Source of the DNA: a virus
Strand: one strand, 5' to 3'
IMG/VR virus record: IMGVR_UViG_3300046517_001221
Span: 1-26,494 of that record
DNA: 26,494 nucleotides
Part shown: in pieces, positions 2,803-13,535 of the stretch
Position numbering within the stretch: the first letter of the stretch is position 1
Layout of the letters: every line of letters starts with the position of its first letter
Program-made: the position numbers and the translations under genes
The notes under the pieces: model-generated
Told to the model about the DNA's origin: nothing
What the model saw: the letters and a program-made list of their open reading frames with translations, nothing else
Database searches by the model: none

Positions 2803-2870
2803 CGGAAGCCGCGAAACGTGTAATTGAAGTCACACAACGGGAATGGTTTCGGAGGGAGGAAAGACCATGA
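2799..2870 (+). CDS. Possible 23-residue peptide gene linking the early operon to the excisionase gene
   Basis: This very short frame starts with ATG at 2799, overlapping the preceding stop (ATGA), and ends at 2870, overlapping the ATG of the next gene (ATGA). The peptide is charged (starts MTEAAKRVIEV, ends WFRREERP). Its last codons carry the strong ribosome-binding site GGAGGGAGG for the downstream gene. It may work mainly as a translational coupler. The two perfect start/stop overlaps are the only evidence. Confidence 0.45.
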   Translation: MTEAAKRVIEVTQREWFRREERP

Positions 2871-3079
2871 ATACAGTTTATTACCTGGACCTGCAGAGCG
2901 TCGCACAGTCGTTGTCGCTCTCGACGGCGACTGTGAAACGGTTAGTCGCCGCCGGAGATCTACCGAAGCCTCGCGCCCTGACGGGTAAGCGAGTCGGCTG
3001 GCTCGCTCGCGAGATTGAGGCGTGGGCTGAAGCGCGCCCAGCCTCAAGCGTCCTGCCGCCGCCCAGCAAGGCGGCATAA
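2867..3079 (+). CDS. AlpA/excisionase-like MerR-type helix-turn-helix protein
   Basis: A 70-residue product. The start at 2867 is chosen over the in-frame ATG at 2843 because it follows GGAGGGAGGAAAGACC directly and overlaps the upstream stop. The pattern is that of the AlpA/Xis winged-helix family: YLDLQSVAQSLSLSTATVKRLVAAG (helix-turn-helix), then LPKPRALTGKRVGWLAREIEAWAEAR (wing and last helix). Known relatives are excisionases or activators of integrase genes. It lies tail-to-tail with the integrase gene and the two coding regions overlap by 36 bases. A role as directionality factor (Xis) or regulator of integration is inferred from family and position. Confidence 0.82.
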   Translation: MNTVYYLDLQSVAQSLSLSTATVKRLVAAGDLPKPRALTGKRVGWLAREIEAWAEARPASSVLPPPSKAA

Positions 3080-4312
3080 CTCGACGTCCAGTTTCGTCAG
3101 CCATACGCGGCGCTCATTGTCGTAGCGGTGCCGGTTGTACACTCCGGCCACCCCGCCCAACACGTGTCCGATGATCGCCTCGGCGACCTCATGCGGGCAT
3201 CCCAGTCTAGCTAGCATCGTTCGGACAGTCCGACGCAAGTCGTGGCAGGCCCAATGCGTCACCGTCAACTTCGGCGTGTGGTATGGGTTCTTGACGTTGC
3301 CGTAGGGCTGGCAACGGTAAATCATCTCCTGGATCGTTTTCTGAATCGTATGTGATTCGGCCCGCTTCGCCGGAAACAGGTAGCCCGAGCCATGCTGCGT
3401 CTTGCGGCGTTCGACAATTTCGAGCGCTCTTCCGACCAAAGGCACGCGGTGATCGTTCGCGCTTTCTACGTTGGCATTCTTAGTCTTGGCTTTGGGAATT
3501 GTCCACCAGACGCCATCGCGCTCTTTCGTGATTTCGGAACCCTCAATCGCCATAATCTCGGCGCCGCGCGTGCCGGTCCACAGGTAGAGCGAGATCGCGT
3601 CCTGCAGTAGTTGCGGAGAGTGCGGGAGCCAAACAAGAAGTTCTGCCAATTCGTCGTCGCTCAGCACCCGCTTTTCTTTCGTGCGTTCGCCGGCGCGGAG
3701 GCGGCCAGTTGTCTTGATGCGTCCCTGCATAATCTGGCGCCACCAGTTTGGCGTGGAACTGGCTAACTTGTCGGCGTCCATAGCGAAATCCCAGGCAGCG
3801 CCAAGTTCGCTCCGGAGCCGCAGAGCCATTGTCGGGGATTCGCTCATGCCGCTTATCAGTGCGTAGGCCTGCTGGCGGGTAATCGAGTCTGGAGCGAGAT
3901 CGGCGATGGGTTTGATGCCTCGCCGAATGAGGCGCATGGCGTTCGCGCTGGCTGTAGGCCCGCGGTGCCGTTCGATGTGCCCCGCAATATAGTCCTCGCA
4001 TAGAGCACGGACGTTGTATGGCGGCTTGACCTCAGATTCGCCCCGTCTTTTCCTACGCTTTTCGGCGGAAATATCTACGCCGGAGCTGCGCGTAGTTCGT
4101 GCTGCTTCCCACGCTGCGATAGCGGAGGCGTAGGTCATCGCAGGCCATTCGCCAAGCTTTGTCTGTTTCATGCGCCCGTCAATGGGCGACTTGTAGCGGT
4201 ATGTCCAGCTTCGTTTGGCCGTCGTAGCCTCGATTCGGAGGCCTGGGAAGCCGTCGATATTGACGTGCGTTCCGGGCGCCATGAGCTTTATTTTGCGGGC
4301 GTCAAAGGCCAT
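3044..4312 (-). CDS. int: Tyrosine recombinase integrase (P4-type, DUF4102 arm-binding domain)
   Basis: A 422-residue site-specific recombinase. The N-terminal ~90 residues match the DUF4102 arm-binding domain (GFPGLRIEA, SWTYRYKSPIDGRMKQTKLGEWP), and about 100-195 form the core-binding helical domain. The catalytic part holds R249 in LWTGTRGAE, H357/R360 in HDLRR, H383 in IGHVLGG and the nucleophile Y392 in VYNRH. The H383-Y392 spacing of nine is as in lambda Int. All key residues are present, so it should be active. The leader has no Shine-Dalgarno sequence, hinting at weak translation. Upstream lie a candidate promoter and GCGTAGG boxes. The gene is antisense to read-through from the early operon. 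Confidence 0.95.
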   Translation of the reverse strand: MAFDARKIKLMAPGTHVNIDGFPGLRIEATTAKRSWTYRYKSPIDGRMKQTKLGEWPAMTYASAIAAWEAARTTRSSGVDISAEKRRKRRGESEVKPPYNVRALCEDYIAGHIERHRGPTASANAMRLIRRGIKPIADLAPDSITRQQAYALISGMSESPTMALRLRSELGAAWDFAMDADKLASSTPNWWRQIMQGRIKTTGRLRAGERTKEKRVLSDDELAELLVWLPHSPQLLQDAISLYLWTGTRGAEIMAIEGSEITKERDGVWWTIPKAKTKNANVESANDHRVPLVGRALEIVERRKTQHGSGYLFPAKRAESHTIQKTIQEMIYRCQPYGNVKNPYHTPKLTVTHWACHDLRRTVRTMLARLGCPHEVAEAIIGHVLGGVAGVYNRHRYDNERRVWLTKLDVELCRLAGRRQDA

Positions 4313-4343
4313 CTAGCGTAGGTTTGGCGTAGGAGGATGCGAA

Positions 4344-4372
4344 ATCCTACGCCGACACACTATCTTTGTCGA
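4344..4372 (-). promoter_or_regulatory. Putative sigma70 promoter of the integrase gene
   Basis: On the minus strand TCGACA (4372-4367; five of six matches to the -35 consensus) is followed after exactly 17 bases by TAGGAT (4349-4344; four of six to the -10 consensus). Transcription would start near 4337, about 25 bases before the integrase ATG. The -10 element lies in one half of the GGCGTAGGA/TCCTACGCC inverted repeat, so whatever binds that repeat could block the promoter. Consensus match only; no experimental support. Confidence 0.5.
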
Positions 4373-4504
4373 TGGCTCATGTCAGATCAGGAGCCCATTA
4401 TTATTTGAGGTAGAATCGTAGTTAGCCTCTACAGCAAAGGCTTTCAGGCCGACAACTCAATACTGGCGTAGGTTTGCGAGACTTCCGAAAAACCTTGCAG
4501 TAAT

Positions 4505-4532
4505 TTGATGATGGATGTGCAGAGTGTATATG
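4505..4532 (+). promoter_or_regulatory. Weak promoter candidate for the GIY-YIG gene
   Basis: TTGATG (4505-4510), a 16-base spacer and TATATG (4527-4532) give a modest sigma70-like match pointing toward the GIY-YIG gene. Transcription would begin just before the tandem inverted GCGTAGG boxes at 4552-4575, so a protein bound there could act as a roadblock. Weak evidence. Confidence 0.25.
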
Positions 4533-4631
4533 TGACGGGCCTCGGTCACGGAACCTACGCTTTAACCTACGCCTTGAATTTGAACGTCGCCGCCGCGGCG
4601 GATTTGCTCAAAAAACAATATCACGAGTGTT

Positions 4632-5156
4632 ATGACGATCGAAGAACTGAGAAAGATCTTGCCTCCAAACCTGTTCGTAAATGCAACGGCAGACCGATAC
4701 CACTATCGCGATCCCCGTACCGGCCGGATGAAGAGTCTGGGAAGCGATCGGGAATCGGCTATCGCTTTCGTCACCGAGAAGAACATCACCAACGGGATAT
4801 TCAAAAAAGGAGATGTTGCGAAGCGGTTTGTTAGATCGGCAGCGTTTGTCGAGGAAAAGGACCTGCTTTCTGAGGCCGAACTTAATGTCATTGCGCAGCC
4901 CATCCGGCAGTTGTGTGGCGTCTATCTGCTAATGAGCGAAGGGCGCGTGGTGTATGTGGGGCAGTCGACAAACTGCCATGGACGGATAGGGACGCACTTC
5001 GCAGAGCGCAGTAAGAAATTCGACTCCTACCACATCATTGAGTGCAGGCCGAAAGACCTGACGCGACTTGAAACCCAGTACATCGCCAAATTCATGCCGA
5101 AGTACAACATCCTAGTCCCTAAGGCGATCGGCAAAATGATGAGCGAGGCGTCGTAG
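4632..5156 (+). CDS. GIY-YIG nuclease with lambda-Int-type arm-binding N-terminal domain
   Basis: A 174-residue two-part protein. Residues about 10-50 (LPPNLF, YHYRDPRTGRMKSLGSDRESAIAF) closely resemble the N-terminal arm-binding domain of lambda integrase as I remember it (LPPNLY, YRDPRTGKEFGLGRDRRIAI). Residues 95-160 form a GIY-YIG nuclease: GVYLL at 96-100, YVG at 108-110, R118, H122, E147 in LETQYIAKF and N159 in KYNI. All catalytic positions look filled. The known family cuts DNA by metal-dependent hydrolysis. The inference is that the N-terminus directs the nuclease to repeats like the GCGTAGG boxes directly upstream. The start at 4632 has only a weak ribosome-binding site. A homing-endonuclease or att-related role is open. 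Confidence 0.85.
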   Translation: MTIEELRKILPPNLFVNATADRYHYRDPRTGRMKSLGSDRESAIAFVTEKNITNGIFKKGDVAKRFVRSAAFVEEKDLLSEAELNVIAQPIRQLCGVYLLMSEGRVVYVGQSTNCHGRIGTHFAERSKKFDSYHIIECRPKDLTRLETQYIAKFMPKYNILVPKAIGKMMSEAS

Positions 5157-5173
5157 GAAGCTAGAATGGTCCG

Positions 5174-5386
5174 ATGGGCCTCTTCAACGAACAAGGTACG
5201 GATCGCCACTGCATCGGCTGCGAACACTTCACGGAATGGCGCGCGGGCGGTTCAGTCATCCTTTGCATGCACGAAGGCAGGCCGTATGTGCAGGCGATGC
5301 CGGATCGCGGGTGCGTGCACTGGGTTCGCGCGATCGGCGCCGACGACGAAGGCCCGATTCATGCTGGTCCGCGAACGAGGAGGTGA
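5174..5386 (+). CDS. Small Cys-rich, probably metal-binding protein
   Basis: A 70-residue product starting with ATG at 5174, 17 bases after the nuclease stop. It holds CIGCEHF (Cys 14 and 17), ILCMHEG (Cys 31) and RGCVHW (Cys 47), a CxxC-H...C-H...C-H pattern that would suit one zinc site. It is a familiar type of small phage protein but has no assigned role that I know. It sits between the nuclease and ligase genes in the same direction, so it may share their transcript. Confidence 0.65.
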   Translation: MGLFNEQGTDRHCIGCEHFTEWRAGGSVILCMHEGRPYVQAMPDRGCVHWVRAIGADDEGPIHAGPRTRR

Positions 5387-5390
5387 CGCC

Positions 5391-5579
5391 ATGTTCGAGT
5401 ACCGCAACCCTGAAGCGATTCTGGAAGTCGTCCTGCCCGACCGGACCAAGCGGAACGAGCACGGGCATACCCTTGACGAGGACTTTGCCCATCTGTGTGA
5501 CGTGACCGGCTGCCCGAAGGATGATGCATGGGCCAAGCTGGCGCTCGCGTGGGCCTGGACGTCTCGCTACCGTGATTGA
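5391..5579 (+). CDS. Small acidic hypothetical phage protein
   Basis: The start at 5391 is chosen because GAGGAGGTGA, a near-perfect ribosome-binding site, lies directly upstream. Longer readings in the same frame start inside the preceding gene. The 62-residue product is acidic (HTLDEDFAHLCDVTGCPKDDAWAKL) with a Trp-rich C-terminus (LAWAWTSRYRD). Its last eight bases overlap the GTG start of the ligase gene, implying coupled translation. Function unknown. Confidence 0.65.
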   Translation: MFEYRNPEAILEVVLPDRTKRNEHGHTLDEDFAHLCDVTGCPKDDAWAKLALAWAWTSRYRD

Positions 5580-6201
5580 CGCCTCGGATTTGATGCTGGC
5601 GACTCTGCACCCGCGACCATTCTCCGATCCTGACTGGCTGTTTGAACTCAAGTACGACGGCTTCCGCTGCCTGGTCGTGAAGGAAGGCGAGCAGGTGAAA
5701 CTTTTGAGCCGCAACGGCAACATGTTCAACGGATCTTTTCCTGAGGTCGCGCAGGCGGTCGAAAATGTGCCCGGCGACTTCGTGTGGGACGCCGAGTTGA
5801 CGGTCGACGATGACACCGGGCGATCCGACTTCGAGAGGCTCCGACAGCGCGCGGTCACGAAGACGCCGAAGAATGTCCGCGCCGCGGCGAAGTCTGATCC
5901 GGCCCGGCTCTATGTATTCGATGCGCTATCGATTGACGGCGCCGACATTCGCTCCCTGCCTCTCACCGAGCGCAAACTCCATCTTCGCAAATCGTTCGAC
6001 AATTCGAATATGCTGATCTACGCGAGCGGGATTGAGGACGAAGGAAAGCTTGTCTTTGAGCACGTCAAAGAACTTGGCCTTGAAGGGATGATCGCCAAGC
6101 GGATGGACTCAACGTATCAGCGCGGAAGATCGAGGGATTGGCTTAAGATCAAGTACCAAGGGTATGGGCGGCCGGCGGCTTTGGGCTGGGGCAGGAAGTG
6201 A
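5572..6201 (+). CDS. Minimal ATP-dependent DNA ligase (adenylation domain only)
   Basis: The start is taken as GTG at 5572, giving a 209-residue protein that begins MIDASDLMLATL. Earlier in-frame starts fall within another gene. Nucleotidyltransferase motifs are in order: motif I ELKYDGFR with adenylated Lys27, motif III WDAELTV (Glu75), motif IIIa LYVFDALSIDG (113-123), motif IV EGMIAKR (171-177) and motif V DWLKIK (189-194). The protein ends about 15 residues later, so the usual OB-fold domain and motif VI are missing. Family knowledge says the enzyme seals nicks through a ligase-AMP intermediate. Without the OB domain, activity may need a partner or be limited to adenylation. It resembles the LigD-type ligase domain. 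Confidence 0.88.
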   Translation: MIDASDLMLATLHPRPFSDPDWLFELKYDGFRCLVVKEGEQVKLLSRNGNMFNGSFPEVAQAVENVPGDFVWDAELTVDDDTGRSDFERLRQRAVTKTPKNVRAAAKSDPARLYVFDALSIDGADIRSLPLTERKLHLRKSFDNSNMLIYASGIEDEGKLVFEHVKELGLEGMIAKRMDSTYQRGRSRDWLKIKYQGYGRPAALGWGRK

Positions 6202-9686: not shown

Positions 9687-9785
9687 CCGTTCCAGAGGTA
9701 GCGCACCGCGCGACCCGAACAACCCGATAGGACGATCCAATGAAAATCAGCTTTCGCACGCGCCTTGACCGCGCACCCAGAAGAC

Positions 9786-10079
9786 ATGCCAATCCAATTC
9801 AACGAACCATCGACAGAAGACCTGGCGGAGCTCAAGCGCCGTCGCAATGCGACCGGGAAGGAGATGGCCGAGGCGTTCTGGCTGGGAAGCGATCAGCAAT
9901 GGCGCAAATATACGGGCGGCAAGGAACCTCGAAAGATGGGACCACACGTTGCGTTCGTGGGAGCGGCTCACATGGCATTGACGGAAGAAGAGTTCAACCG
10001 TGTGCTGCAGTTCATGGAGACGTTCGGCGCACACGTGAAGCAGGTTCCCGCTGGCGAGCAGGATTCGTCGCAGCCCTGA
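9786..10079 (+). CDS. Small putative DNA-binding regulator of the cargo cassette
   Basis: ATG at 9786 is used; a TTG at 9765 would add seven residues. The 97-residue protein starts MPIQFNEPSTEDLAELKRRR. Its central part (GKEMAEAFWLGSDQQWRKYTGG, then HVAFVGAAHMALTEEEF) has the look of a compact helix-turn-helix domain of the XRE type, where the first helices read as 'add a helix that is skipped unless a site is present'. DNA binding is inferred. It is the first gene behind the promoter at 9657 and could control it. Its 3' half overlaps the out-of-frame beginning of the next gene. Confidence 0.6.
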   Translation: MPIQFNEPSTEDLAELKRRRNATGKEMAEAFWLGSDQQWRKYTGGKEPRKMGPHVAFVGAAHMALTEEEFNRVLQFMETFGAHVKQVPAGEQDSSQP

Positions 10080-10834
10080 GCGTTTGCCTGGCTGCCTGTG
10101 GCGGCGGAGAGAAACCGGCTGACACCGCAGTTGCAAAGCCGATCATTCCGTCGACTGCTTTGCCAGCCTCGGCAGCATCTGGGGCGCCCGCGTCGTGGCC
10201 AACATCTACGCCGATCATCCATATCGATGTCTATGGCGACGACGCGGCGATGGGTCTTGCATCGTATGGCTTCGGCATTCCGGTCATCGTTAAACCAGCT
10301 TCGGCCAGCCTGCAAGATTCGCTGCAGAGGGAGTTCAACGATACCGGCATAACGGTCGCCAACCATGCGACCGGCGGGACGTCAGCGAGTCTGATGAACC
10401 TGCTCGACGGCATGGATGGCGGCGGCGCTCCGTTTGCTCAACGATTGGCATCGACGCAATCTACGATCGTCGTGATTAGTTACGGCCTGAACGAGCAGTA
10501 CGGCGGCGAAACAGTTTCCGATTTCTCGGGCTACCTTGCACAAGCCATCCAGACCGTGCGGGCTGCCGGCAGAAGACCAGTTCTTGAGACTCCGTCGCCA
10601 ACGTGCGACAGCGATCATCCGTTCACGGCAAGTTACGCCGCGGCGATCAAGGCGGCGGGAGTGACCTACGATGTGCCGGTGGTCGATAACCACGCTGCGA
10701 TTTCTGCTCTGGCGGATTGGGGTTCGCACATGGATGCGACATGCATATTGCCGGACGAGACATTGCAGACGCTCAAGGCTCAGCAGGAGTTGGCAGTCAT
10801 CGGCCCTATCGTTAAGGCTGAGTTCGGCGGATAG
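9899..10834 (+). CDS. SGNH/GDSL hydrolase-like lipoprotein (start uncertain)
   Basis: The recognisable protein begins with a lipoprotein signal ending LSVCLAAC (Cys codon at 10097), a low-complexity Ala/Pro/Ser linker, then an SGNH fold: block I VYGDDAAMG, block II NHATGGTS, block III SYGLNEQYGG and a late block WGSHMDATCILPDE. In the usual block I the second D is the catalytic Ser (GDS), so the nucleophile seems lost. Only ATGs at 9740 and 9899 are in frame ahead of the signal. No normal start lies close to it, and both would run through the regulator gene in another frame. A -1 frameshift from that gene, a non-standard start or a damaged start are possible. It would be anchored in the envelope. 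Confidence 0.65.
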   Translation: MAQIYGRQGTSKDGTTRCVRGSGSHGIDGRRVQPCAAVHGDVRRTREAGSRWRAGFVAALSVCLAACGGGEKPADTAVAKPIIPSTALPASAASGAPASWPTSTPIIHIDVYGDDAAMGLASYGFGIPVIVKPASASLQDSLQREFNDTGITVANHATGGTSASLMNLLDGMDGGGAPFAQRLASTQSTIVVISYGLNEQYGGETVSDFSGYLAQAIQTVRAAGRRPVLETPSPTCDSDHPFTASYAAAIKAAGVTYDVPVVDNHAAISALADWGSHMDATCILPDETLQTLKAQQELAVIGPIVKAEFGG

Positions 10835-10867
10835 ACGCCTGCGCTAGGCAAGCAAATCGCAAGAGCT

Positions 10868-10889
10868 GACGGATTCGGACGAATCCGTC
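10868..10889. terminator. Short hairpin between the SGNH-like and DUF2142 genes
   Basis: GACGGATTC (10868-10876), loop GGAC, and GAATCCGTC (10881-10889) form a perfect nine-base stem. The sequence after it (TCTCTCGATT) is only moderately T-rich. It could be a partial terminator or RNA-stabilising element within the cargo cassette. Confidence 0.4.
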
Positions 10890-10935
10890 TCTCGATTGCG
10901 CTATGATGCGCCCGAACAATTCAGGAATAAAGGCA

Positions 10936-12273
10936 ATGAATTCGCTGCGTCAATGGACAATTGCGTTTTTTTCCATCGTCATCATTGGCAGTTTTCTATC
11001 GGCAATCATACCGCCGATGCAGTCGCCAGATGAAAACGACCATATCAAGCGCGCATATCTGCTTTCTGTGCTATCGCAAACCGTAACAGAGCCGGGGCGC
11101 TCGACCGGAGGTTATTTCGACGACGCGTTGCAACAGTACCAGGTGCTGAACTTTCAGGCGCTTTCTACCAAGCCTAATGCCCGGTTTGATGCGAAAACGG
11201 CAGAGGCCGGTGCAGCCATAAAATGGAGCGGCGCTCGGAGTTACGTCGACATGGCCGGTGCTGCGCCATATTTCCCGCTAGGCTACCTCCCGCAAGCTGT
11301 AGGACTGCGGATTGGCGAATCATTGCACTTGGGTGTGGGCGCATCATACCGGCTTGCACGCGCGACAACTTTGATTGCTGTTGCCGTTATCATTGCTTAC
11401 GCATTCACGGTCTTCCCGCCGAATGCGTTGGTAATTTGCCTCCTAGCGCTGCCAATGACGATGTTCCAGTTATCGAGCGCGTCGGCTGACGGTATGTCGT
11501 TCGCCTGGACTGTGTTAGCAGCAAGCCTATTCCGCCGTGGCTTGGATCGAGAGCAGCCGTTTCCGCTTCTGTGGTCCTTGCTGCTGATCGTTGCGCCGTT
11601 CATGATTGCCACGAGTCGGCCGCAACTGATGGCGATCCTGATACTGGCACCAGTGGTTTTCTTCGTCCGAAAAGACCGCCGTGCGCTGGCTGCTTCTGTC
11701 ATCGCGGCGTTGCTCGCTGTGGGGTGGGTGATGTATGGAGCATCACACACCGTCGATCTGCGGTGGCCGCGCTCGATTACGACCGGTCAGGCCGTCTCGT
11801 TCTACATGCATCATCCCGTCGAACTGATAGAAGTCATTTGGCGAACGCTGTCGAACCCGGCAGTCATCGATTCGTACTGGCGTCAGTTCGTCGGCGTCCT
11901 TGGTTGGCTCGATCGGCCCATGCCGCCCGTTACCTACAAATTCGCGGGTGTTGGCTTGCTAATTGCATTGGTGATCTCCTGCTCCCGCGGGGTGGGGGCG
12001 CTTGCCCGGACGGTGCCGTTAATGGTCGCCGCGGCCGCGGTAATGCTTACCCTCGTCGCGCTGCTTGTCACTTGGACGGATCTTCACGCCCAACTTATCA
12101 TCGGTGTGCAAGGTCGTTATTTCACCGCTCCGGCCATCCTCGCTGCTTACGCCCTAAGTGATGCAGAACCTATGAAGCGGCGATCATCGGTGACCATGAT
12201 CGTTTGCGGCGCTTTTCTCGCATTCTCAATGTCGATGACTGTGTCGACGCTGATCTGGAAATACTATTTGTAG
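10936..12273 (+). CDS. DUF2142 polytopic membrane protein (GT-C glycosyltransferase-like)
   Basis: ATG at 10936 is chosen (AGGA ten bases upstream); upstream ATGs at 10903/10906 lack a site. The 445-residue protein has about ten membrane segments. After the first span it carries PPMQSPDENDHIKRAY, the acidic loop (PDE at 31-33, His36) typical of DUF2142, a group related to GT-C glycosyltransferases. By analogy it would use a lipid-linked sugar on the periplasmic side, for example to decorate O-antigen. The donor and acceptor cannot be told. Next to an acyltransferase and an SGNH-like lipoprotein, a role in lysogenic conversion of the host surface is likely. Confidence 0.8.
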   Translation: MNSLRQWTIAFFSIVIIGSFLSAIIPPMQSPDENDHIKRAYLLSVLSQTVTEPGRSTGGYFDDALQQYQVLNFQALSTKPNARFDAKTAEAGAAIKWSGARSYVDMAGAAPYFPLGYLPQAVGLRIGESLHLGVGASYRLARATTLIAVAVIIAYAFTVFPPNALVICLLALPMTMFQLSSASADGMSFAWTVLAASLFRRGLDREQPFPLLWSLLLIVAPFMIATSRPQLMAILILAPVVFFVRKDRRALAASVIAALLAVGWVMYGASHTVDLRWPRSITTGQAVSFYMHHPVELIEVIWRTLSNPAVIDSYWRQFVGVLGWLDRPMPPVTYKFAGVGLLIALVISCSRGVGALARTVPLMVAAAAVMLTLVALLVTWTDLHAQLIIGVQGRYFTAPAILAAYALSDAEPMKRRSSVTMIVCGAFLAFSMSMTVSTLIWKYYL

Positions 12274-12326
12274 ATCCCAGAATTCGTTAAGGCTGCGATT
12301 TTTTAGACCCAAAGAAGGCGAACGCG

Positions 12327-13535
12327 GTGCCTGATATATCCATTTTTTCGGTATGGCCCATGATGGCCATTGTCGGCCTGGTTGTGGTCGCGCTTTCCGG
12401 GCGATTCCTCCGGTTTCTGGACGTCAGTCCGACTGTATTTGCGCACCGACTAGATTCTATCGACGGCCTGCGCGGGATCCTTGCAACAGCCGTTGCATTC
12501 CATCATTTCGTGCTGCATGGATATGGCGCGAAGTTTGGAGTGGCTGCACCTTCCCATTTTTATATGTCTCTTGGGCCCGCAGCCGTAGCTATATTCTTCA
12601 TGATTACCGGCTACCTGTTCTGGAGTCGCCTTCTTGCTAAAGCCGATTCCGTGAACTGGGCGGAGTTATATGTCAACCGTTTCTTCAGGATCTATCCACT
12701 GTATCTTTTCCTGATTGCGTCGTACTTCGCAGTGGTTTTGTGCCGCGTCCACTTTGAGATCGACCAACCGTTCAAGCAAACTGTCTTTCAAATTGGCCAA
12801 TGGCTCGCACTCGGGGTCGTCAAGAATCCAACGCCTTTTTTGAACATGGATGCTGCGATGTCTGTAGTGGGACCTGTGTGGAGCTTGCGTTATGAGTGGC
12901 TGTTCTACGCAAGCTTACCGATATTGTCTATATTTGCTCGCCTCGGACGTCCGGTCGCATTGACGGCATCAGCACTGTTTCTTGTTCTGGCAGTCGACGG
13001 TCTGATCGCGGAGCCGTTCAGGTCGTTTCTTGCCGAATTTCTGTGCGGGATGCTCGCATCATCAATCATGCGCACGCGACCGGCCCTCAAAGGAGATGGA
13101 GCAATACGGTCCATCATCGCTTGCGCCTTGATCGTCGCCGCGTTTCGTGTCCCAGACATCATCTACTCGCCGGTTGGCACGTTGCTGCTCGGTGGATTTT
13201 TCATGATGATAGTTTCCGGAACGTCAATCTTCGGAGTGCTTCAAACGCGGGGCGCGCATCGCTTGGGTAACATGAGCTACAGCGTGTATCTGCTTCACAG
13301 CCTCGTCATTACGATGGTGATGACCCGTCCCGCTATTGTTTCCTATGCTCTCGGAAACAATTCTGCATTCTGGATCACCTGCGCCTTCATGTATGTCACC
13401 ACCGTCGCAATGTCGGTTGCAACGTTCTCGGCGATTGAACGGGTCGGTATCTCAATCGGAAAAGCCGCGATTACGCGGCTCAACCGGGCATCAGACGTTC
13501 ATCCAGGTACTGGAGTCACGACGGGGCAGCCGTGA
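12327..13535 (+). CDS. Acyltransferase-3 (OafA-like) membrane protein
   Basis: GTG at 12327 follows AAGAAGG. The 402-residue protein shows acyltransferase-3 signatures: LDSIDGLRGILA (42-53) with His59-His60 shortly after, FFMITGYLFWSR (90-101), and RFFRIYPLYLF (118-128), plus about ten membrane spans. Known relatives transfer acetyl or other acyl groups to LPS, O-antigen or exopolysaccharide. There is no fused SGNH domain; the SGNH-like lipoprotein upstream may take its place. Sampled lines here are poorer in GC (about 42-48%) than the early phage genes (about 60%), suggesting separate origin. Its stop is one base from the tail-spike gene's stop on the other strand. Confidence 0.88.
   Translation: MPDISIFSVWPMMAIVGLVVVALSGRFLRFLDVSPTVFAHRLDSIDGLRGILATAVAFHHFVLHGYGAKFGVAAPSHFYMSLGPAAVAIFFMITGYLFWSRLLAKADSVNWAELYVNRFFRIYPLYLFLIASYFAVVLCRVHFEIDQPFKQTVFQIGQWLALGVVKNPTPFLNMDAAMSVVGPVWSLRYEWLFYASLPILSIFARLGRPVALTASALFLVLAVDGLIAEPFRSFLAEFLCGMLASSIMRTRPALKGDGAIRSIIACALIVAAFRVPDIIYSPVGTLLLGGFFMMIVSGTSIFGVLQTRGAHRLGNMSYSVYLLHSLVITMVMTRPAIVSYALGNNSAFWITCAFMYVTTVAMSVATFSAIERVGISIGKAAITRLNRASDVHPGTGVTTGQP

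Follow-up and report, generated by a model that had tools for sequence, protein, structure and literature searches.

A KS9-type phage attachment site beside a gene for a putative nuclease with an integrase arm-binding domain

The window, by which we mean the whole stretch of DNA analysed, spans the 26,494 bases of a linear viral record. Its intergenic region at 4313–4631 separates the start of an integrase gene (int, minus strand) from a divergent gene at 4632–5156 that encodes a GIY-YIG protein. The features of the locus are listed below, with box positions given relative to a predicted core; L002 and L003 are viral contigs from IMG/VR with closely related integrases.

2843–3079, plus strand: AlpA/excisionase-like regulator (PF05930, 7e-8, and PHROG excisionase families), convergent with int, an arrangement as in Acidovorax phage Aval
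3044–4312, minus strand: tyrosine integrase of 422 aa (Arm-DNA-bind_3 plus Phage_integrase; Pfam PF13356, 3e-9, and PF00589, 1e-10), 51% identical to the integrase of Burkholderia phage KS9
4316–4322, plus strand: candidate P′ arm box GCGTAGGTTT, core+170, conserved in L002 and L003
4327–4333, plus strand: candidate P′ arm box GCGTAGGAGG, with a degenerate tail, core+159
4346–4352, minus strand: candidate P′ arm box GCGTAGGATT, core+140, found in KS9 and Aval at core+144
4466–4472, plus strand: extra box, core+20, present in the group formed by the window, L002 and L003 and not in KS9 or Aval
4493–4515, no strand assigned: predicted attP core (crossover region) CCTTGCAGTAATTTGATGATGGA, position approximate
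4554–4560, minus strand: candidate P arm box, core−38
4566–4572, minus strand: outermost candidate P arm box, core−50; homology to L002 and L003 stops at 4573
4574–5173, plus strand: exchangeable nuclease cassette defined by DNA homology comparison, GIY-YIG in the window, HNH (HNH_3) in L002 and neither in L003
4632–5156, plus strand: 174-aa protein with a lambda-Int-type arm-binding domain (residues 8–52; PF09003, 1.4e-9) and a GIY-YIG nuclease domain (residues 95–159; PF01541, 8e-7)

Beyond the cassette, 5521–6201 encodes a short ATP-dependent DNA ligase adenylation domain that is also present in L002 and L003. Genes for a GDSL hydrolase, a DUF2142 membrane protein and an acyltransferase lie beside lysis genes at 9740–13535, a set typical of a lysogen that modifies surface polysaccharide.

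A sequence-only reading had described six GCGTAGG boxes, in both orientations, in non-coding DNA beside int and had proposed the region as an attP candidate. All six are exact matches, and their number within 4313–4631 compares with a Markov mean of 0.04 (maximum, 2 in 20,000). The whole window holds 13 copies against 2.9 expected, a count reached in none of 100 shuffles. That reading left unmentioned three of the seven remaining copies, which fall within the coding sequence of int (3861–3867, 4052–4058 and 4128–4134); L002 keeps the 4052 and 4128 copies and L003 the 4052 copy. The box also accompanies the integrase family, as GCGTA[GA][GC]TTT occurs less than 130 bp upstream of int in 57 of the 65 usable related host-genome loci, compared with 0.4% of control windows. 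GCGTAGG boxes are predicted to be arm-type sites bound by the integrase N-terminal domain, and a putative arm site for this family is now defined from sequence.

The attP sites of KS9 (FJ982340) and Aval were rebuilt by joining the ends of their records, which appear to have been opened at the attachment site; the far end of each record carries two further boxes. Relative to the core, boxes lie at −50, −38, +144, +174 and +205 in KS9 and at −53, −41, +144 and +173 in Aval, where a further loose match occurs at +186. The corresponding positions in the window are −50, −38, +20, +140, +159 and +170, so that P-arm spacing is identical in the window and KS9 (50 and 38 nt between box and core). This geometry, together with conservation in L002 and L003, places the core of the window at approximately 4493–4515. 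Two possible core segments had been suggested earlier; the one at 4477–4551 holds the predicted core, while that at 4354–4464 turned out to be the P′ arm.

Arm-type repeats thus flank the core beside int, as they do in a KS9-type attP, and 4313–4573 is almost certainly an undivided attP, an ordinary site of a known type, from a temperate phage whose tyrosine integrase is of the KS9 type. Its layout would consist of two P-arm boxes, three P′-arm boxes and one extra box beside the core. Recombination with a bacterial gene would leave the integrase at one end of the prophage and the 4632–5156 gene at the other. If the boxes were instead a transcription operator with no part in att, the P′ boxes, which lie in the int leader, could autoregulate int, a role they might also have within an attP. 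The P-arm boxes argue against a purely regulatory function: they lie past the core, where there is no reason for an int operator, and in KS9 and Aval they are found at the other end of the prophage. We regard the operator explanation as scarcely credible.

Relatives of the integrase show where such phages insert. The three close IMG/VR integrases, L002, L003 and L004, are 87%, 82% and 63% identical over the best segment, and L002 and L003 retain the box array; among named phages, KS9 (51%) and Aval (49%) were identified. Among 84,980 host species genomes scanned, 80 loci were found, with a best integrase identity of only 55%, and hence no known lysogen of the window's own group. In related prophages the genes directly past the array are host genes, namely the 3′ end of GTP cyclohydrolase II, the 5′ end of mutS, the 5′ end of a DeoR-type regulator and the 3′ end of maf. 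Prophages of this integrase family occur at the mutS 5′ end in many beta-proteobacteria (L016, L017, L020, L022, L024, L026–L030, L036, L046, L050 and L069), where they appear to give mutS a new start; other members insert at an end of ribA, of maf or of a DeoR-type gene. The junctions of these relatives therefore fall at the core, as seen in the KS9 and Aval record ends and in the host genes beyond the array. The sequence-only reading had proposed looking for related prophages and for host identities to the core. Related prophages bore the site out, but the host-genome search gave no plausible attB: a 22-base core query allowing 3 mismatches found six matches in 399 Burkholderiales genomes, two of them the same ileS-internal site and the best ones otherwise random. 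Across viral contigs, the core pattern had no matches beyond the two known relatives.

As had been pointed out earlier, phage genes continue on both sides of the site. The contig is viral rather than a lysogen junction, and attP stays whole in virion or replicating DNA, which accounts for the undivided state. Undivided sites were also found in other metagenome virus contigs (L002, L003, L004, L006, L092, L120 and L128). Four of these, L006, L092, L120 and L128, are unrelated viral contigs with a tRNA-3′-end-like core, GGTGCC[CG]GGGACCGG..., between int and a gene for a GIY-YIG protein with an arm-binding domain, again with phage genes on both sides. The free phage put forward as one possible origin is thus sufficient, whereas a phage-plasmid, also put forward, is neither shown by this 26.5 kb fragment nor needed. 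A phage-plasmid would keep attP intact because it does not integrate, in keeping with an undivided site among phage genes, and ParB-like genes are present in KS9 and Aval. However, KS9-type relatives adjoin host genes at the expected junction, and an undivided attP is expected of any virion or replicating phage DNA, making this origin very improbable.

KS9 is like the window in its integrase, box, P-arm spacing and a nearby AlpA-like regulator, and unlike it in having a different core sequence, no core+20 box and no chimeric GIY-YIG gene beside att. The window shares with lambda Int and its attP a bivalent logic in which arm sites flank the core, but differs in the arm class of the integrase (PF13356), in box sequence and in having att upstream of int. 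It is the neighbouring gene, not int, whose N-terminal domain belongs to the lambda arm-binding family.

Also overlooked was the product of the gene across attP, a predicted nuclease bearing an arm-binding domain of integrase type. The protein matches the N-domain of lambda Int (1kjk) by phmmer at 4e-6. Its AlphaFold model (mean pLDDT 88.7, with a flexible linker) was matched by Foldseek to 1kjk (TM 0.83 by target), to 2wcc (lambda Int DNA-binding domain on P′2 DNA) and to 1yd6, the UvrC GIY-YIG domain. The N-terminal domain has the three-stranded sheet and helix of 1kjk and 2wcc, and the GIY/YIG, R, E and N catalytic positions are invariant in 12 such proteins. We are highly confident that the product is a chimera of an arm-binding and a GIY-YIG domain, hereafter arm-GIY; nuclease activity is predicted from sequence and model.

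The arm-domain class of the nuclease differs from that of the neighbouring integrase, and the same mismatch occurs in L005, L006 and L092. Binding to the GCGTAGG boxes is therefore not implied, and the obvious target would be the boxes of a rival rather than those of the phage itself. A lambda-type arm consensus, AGTCACTAT, was absent from the window.

The gene occupies an exchangeable position. DNA homology to L002 and L003 extends a single base beyond the outermost box, to 4573, and picks up again at 5174 (L003) or 5503 (L002). Such presence/absence polymorphism at one site, which is characteristic of homing endonuclease genes, occurs here at the very edge of attP. Like free-standing GIY-YIG and HNH homing endonucleases, arm-GIY is an exchangeable cassette between neighbouring genes and has GIY-YIG catalytic residues; unlike them, it would read DNA through an integrase arm domain and is strongly linked to int.

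Recurrence of this linkage was surveyed among 80 GIY-YIG loci from IMG/VR, with integrases detected by an iterated profile and PF00589. Lambda-class arm N-termini were found on GIY-YIG proteins in L005, L006 and L092–L095, and other integrase-type N-domains in L120/125/126, L128, L134, L149, L151 and L166; by sequence similarity, the fusions use arm domains of at least two integrase classes. After removal of similar proteins and contig-edge cases, arm-GIY genes adjoined int in 9 of 9 representatives, compared with 8 of 25 for GIY-YIG genes that have no arm domain (Fisher p 9e-4, which is indicative, as the representatives are still related). In five phages the arm domain resembles that of the adjacent integrase (identity 55% in L128, 50% in L120, 48% in L134, 45% in L094 and 34% in L166). 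For L128 the assignment of an arm domain rests on this similarity, because Foldseek gave a good match for the GIY-YIG half alone. The L005 provirus represents the integrated state: at its left end arm-GIY adjoins a tRNA-Leu, and at its right end int adjoins rnr. Direct repeats between its ends gave short, weak matches only, and its att core is therefore not fixed. Two genes lie apart from any integrase neighbour: a chromosomal arm-GIY gene (L204:9565–10539, G047), possibly a stray or relic, had no integrase detected within about 10 kb, and a GIY-YIG protein whose N-terminus is like the Arm-DNA-bind_5 integrase class (L163:4653–5210) is encoded about 34 kb away from the integrase on its contig.

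The full fusion was absent from 50,697 phage records, where the two halves occur only separately, and in 72,556 plasmid records the halves were likewise found only apart. Matches in a phylum-wide search of 399 genomes covered the nuclease half or the linker, never the arm domain, and a literature search found no paper linking GIY-YIG with attP or arm-binding domains. Arm-GIY thus recurs beside attachment sites in unrelated phages, with no annotated precedent in the literature and databases searched.

These observations bear on what the protein does. It may be an ordinary free-standing homing endonuclease with an AP2-like DNA-binding fold, whose target is unrelated to att and whose place beside attP reflects nothing more than a spot that tolerates insertions. 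The exchangeability of the spot, with HNH_3 in L002 and nothing in L003, the GIY-YIG genes adjoining int in the armless group, and the precedent of nuclease genes at phage exchange boundaries (PMC10448857) all fit that explanation. A generic target would not, however, predict N-domains specifically of integrase arm classes, five of which resemble that of the adjacent integrase. We consider such an enzyme a real possibility, though not a probable one.

Arm-GIY might instead regulate its own phage by competing with Int for arm sites or by nicking its own att, favouring integration over excision, and may repress its own promoter. In L128, similar repeats flank the unrelated attP (4527–4556 and 4743–4773), with the outer copies immediately 5′ of where arm-GIY begins, which suggests possible autoregulation, and arm domains matched to the adjacent integrase are also compatible with such a role. 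It is made unlikely by the class mismatch with the resident integrase in the window, L005, L006 and L092, by retention of catalytic residues that a pure repressor would not need, and by the lack of the cassette in L003.

The nearest proven parallel is Odn, the origin-directed nuclease of phage ICP1. This GIY-YIG-superfamily enzyme has a DNA-binding domain that mimics the one in the replication initiator of a satellite, and it cleaves that satellite's origin (PMC8263062). Arm-GIY similarly joins a GIY-YIG-superfamily nuclease to a DNA-binding domain borrowed from a mobile-element protein. Identity to the domain model is 42% for Odn (PMC8263062) and falls within 34–55% for the five arm-GIY relatives (L094, L120, L128, L134 and L166) whose domain is homologous to that of the neighbouring Int, which would make them Odn-like if the targeted element carried such an Int; in the window the classes differ. 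Arm-GIY differs in that its domain comes from integrases rather than a replication initiator, in usually being encoded beside int and att, and in having a putative activity. By analogy, arm-GIY would cut att arm sites, its arm-binding domain delivering the GIY-YIG catalytic domain to arm-like sequences. Cleavage could serve to spread the cassette into related phages, as homing beside attP, or to damage the att sites of rival phages or satellites, two actions that are inseparable by sequence. Of the actions considered, att-directed cleavage is the most likely, though we put it at somewhat under an even chance. The locus as a whole is probably best explained as a KS9-type attP with a neighbouring chimeric, putatively att-directed, nuclease.

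The attP itself is ordinary, and what merits further attention is the nuclease family linked to it. We tentatively propose a recurrent class of GIY-YIG enzymes that reside beside attP and have acquired their arm-binding domains, on repeated occasions, from integrases of different classes; they may cut the att arms of rivals or satellites, as Odn cuts satellite origins, or drive exchange of int-att modules. Such action could explain module exchange between otherwise similar phages, as in the window and L005, whose arm-GIY proteins are 55% identical and whose integrases are different. The existence of arm-GIY proteins points to phages converting the DNA reader of the integrase into a nuclease, in direct conflict over integration sites.
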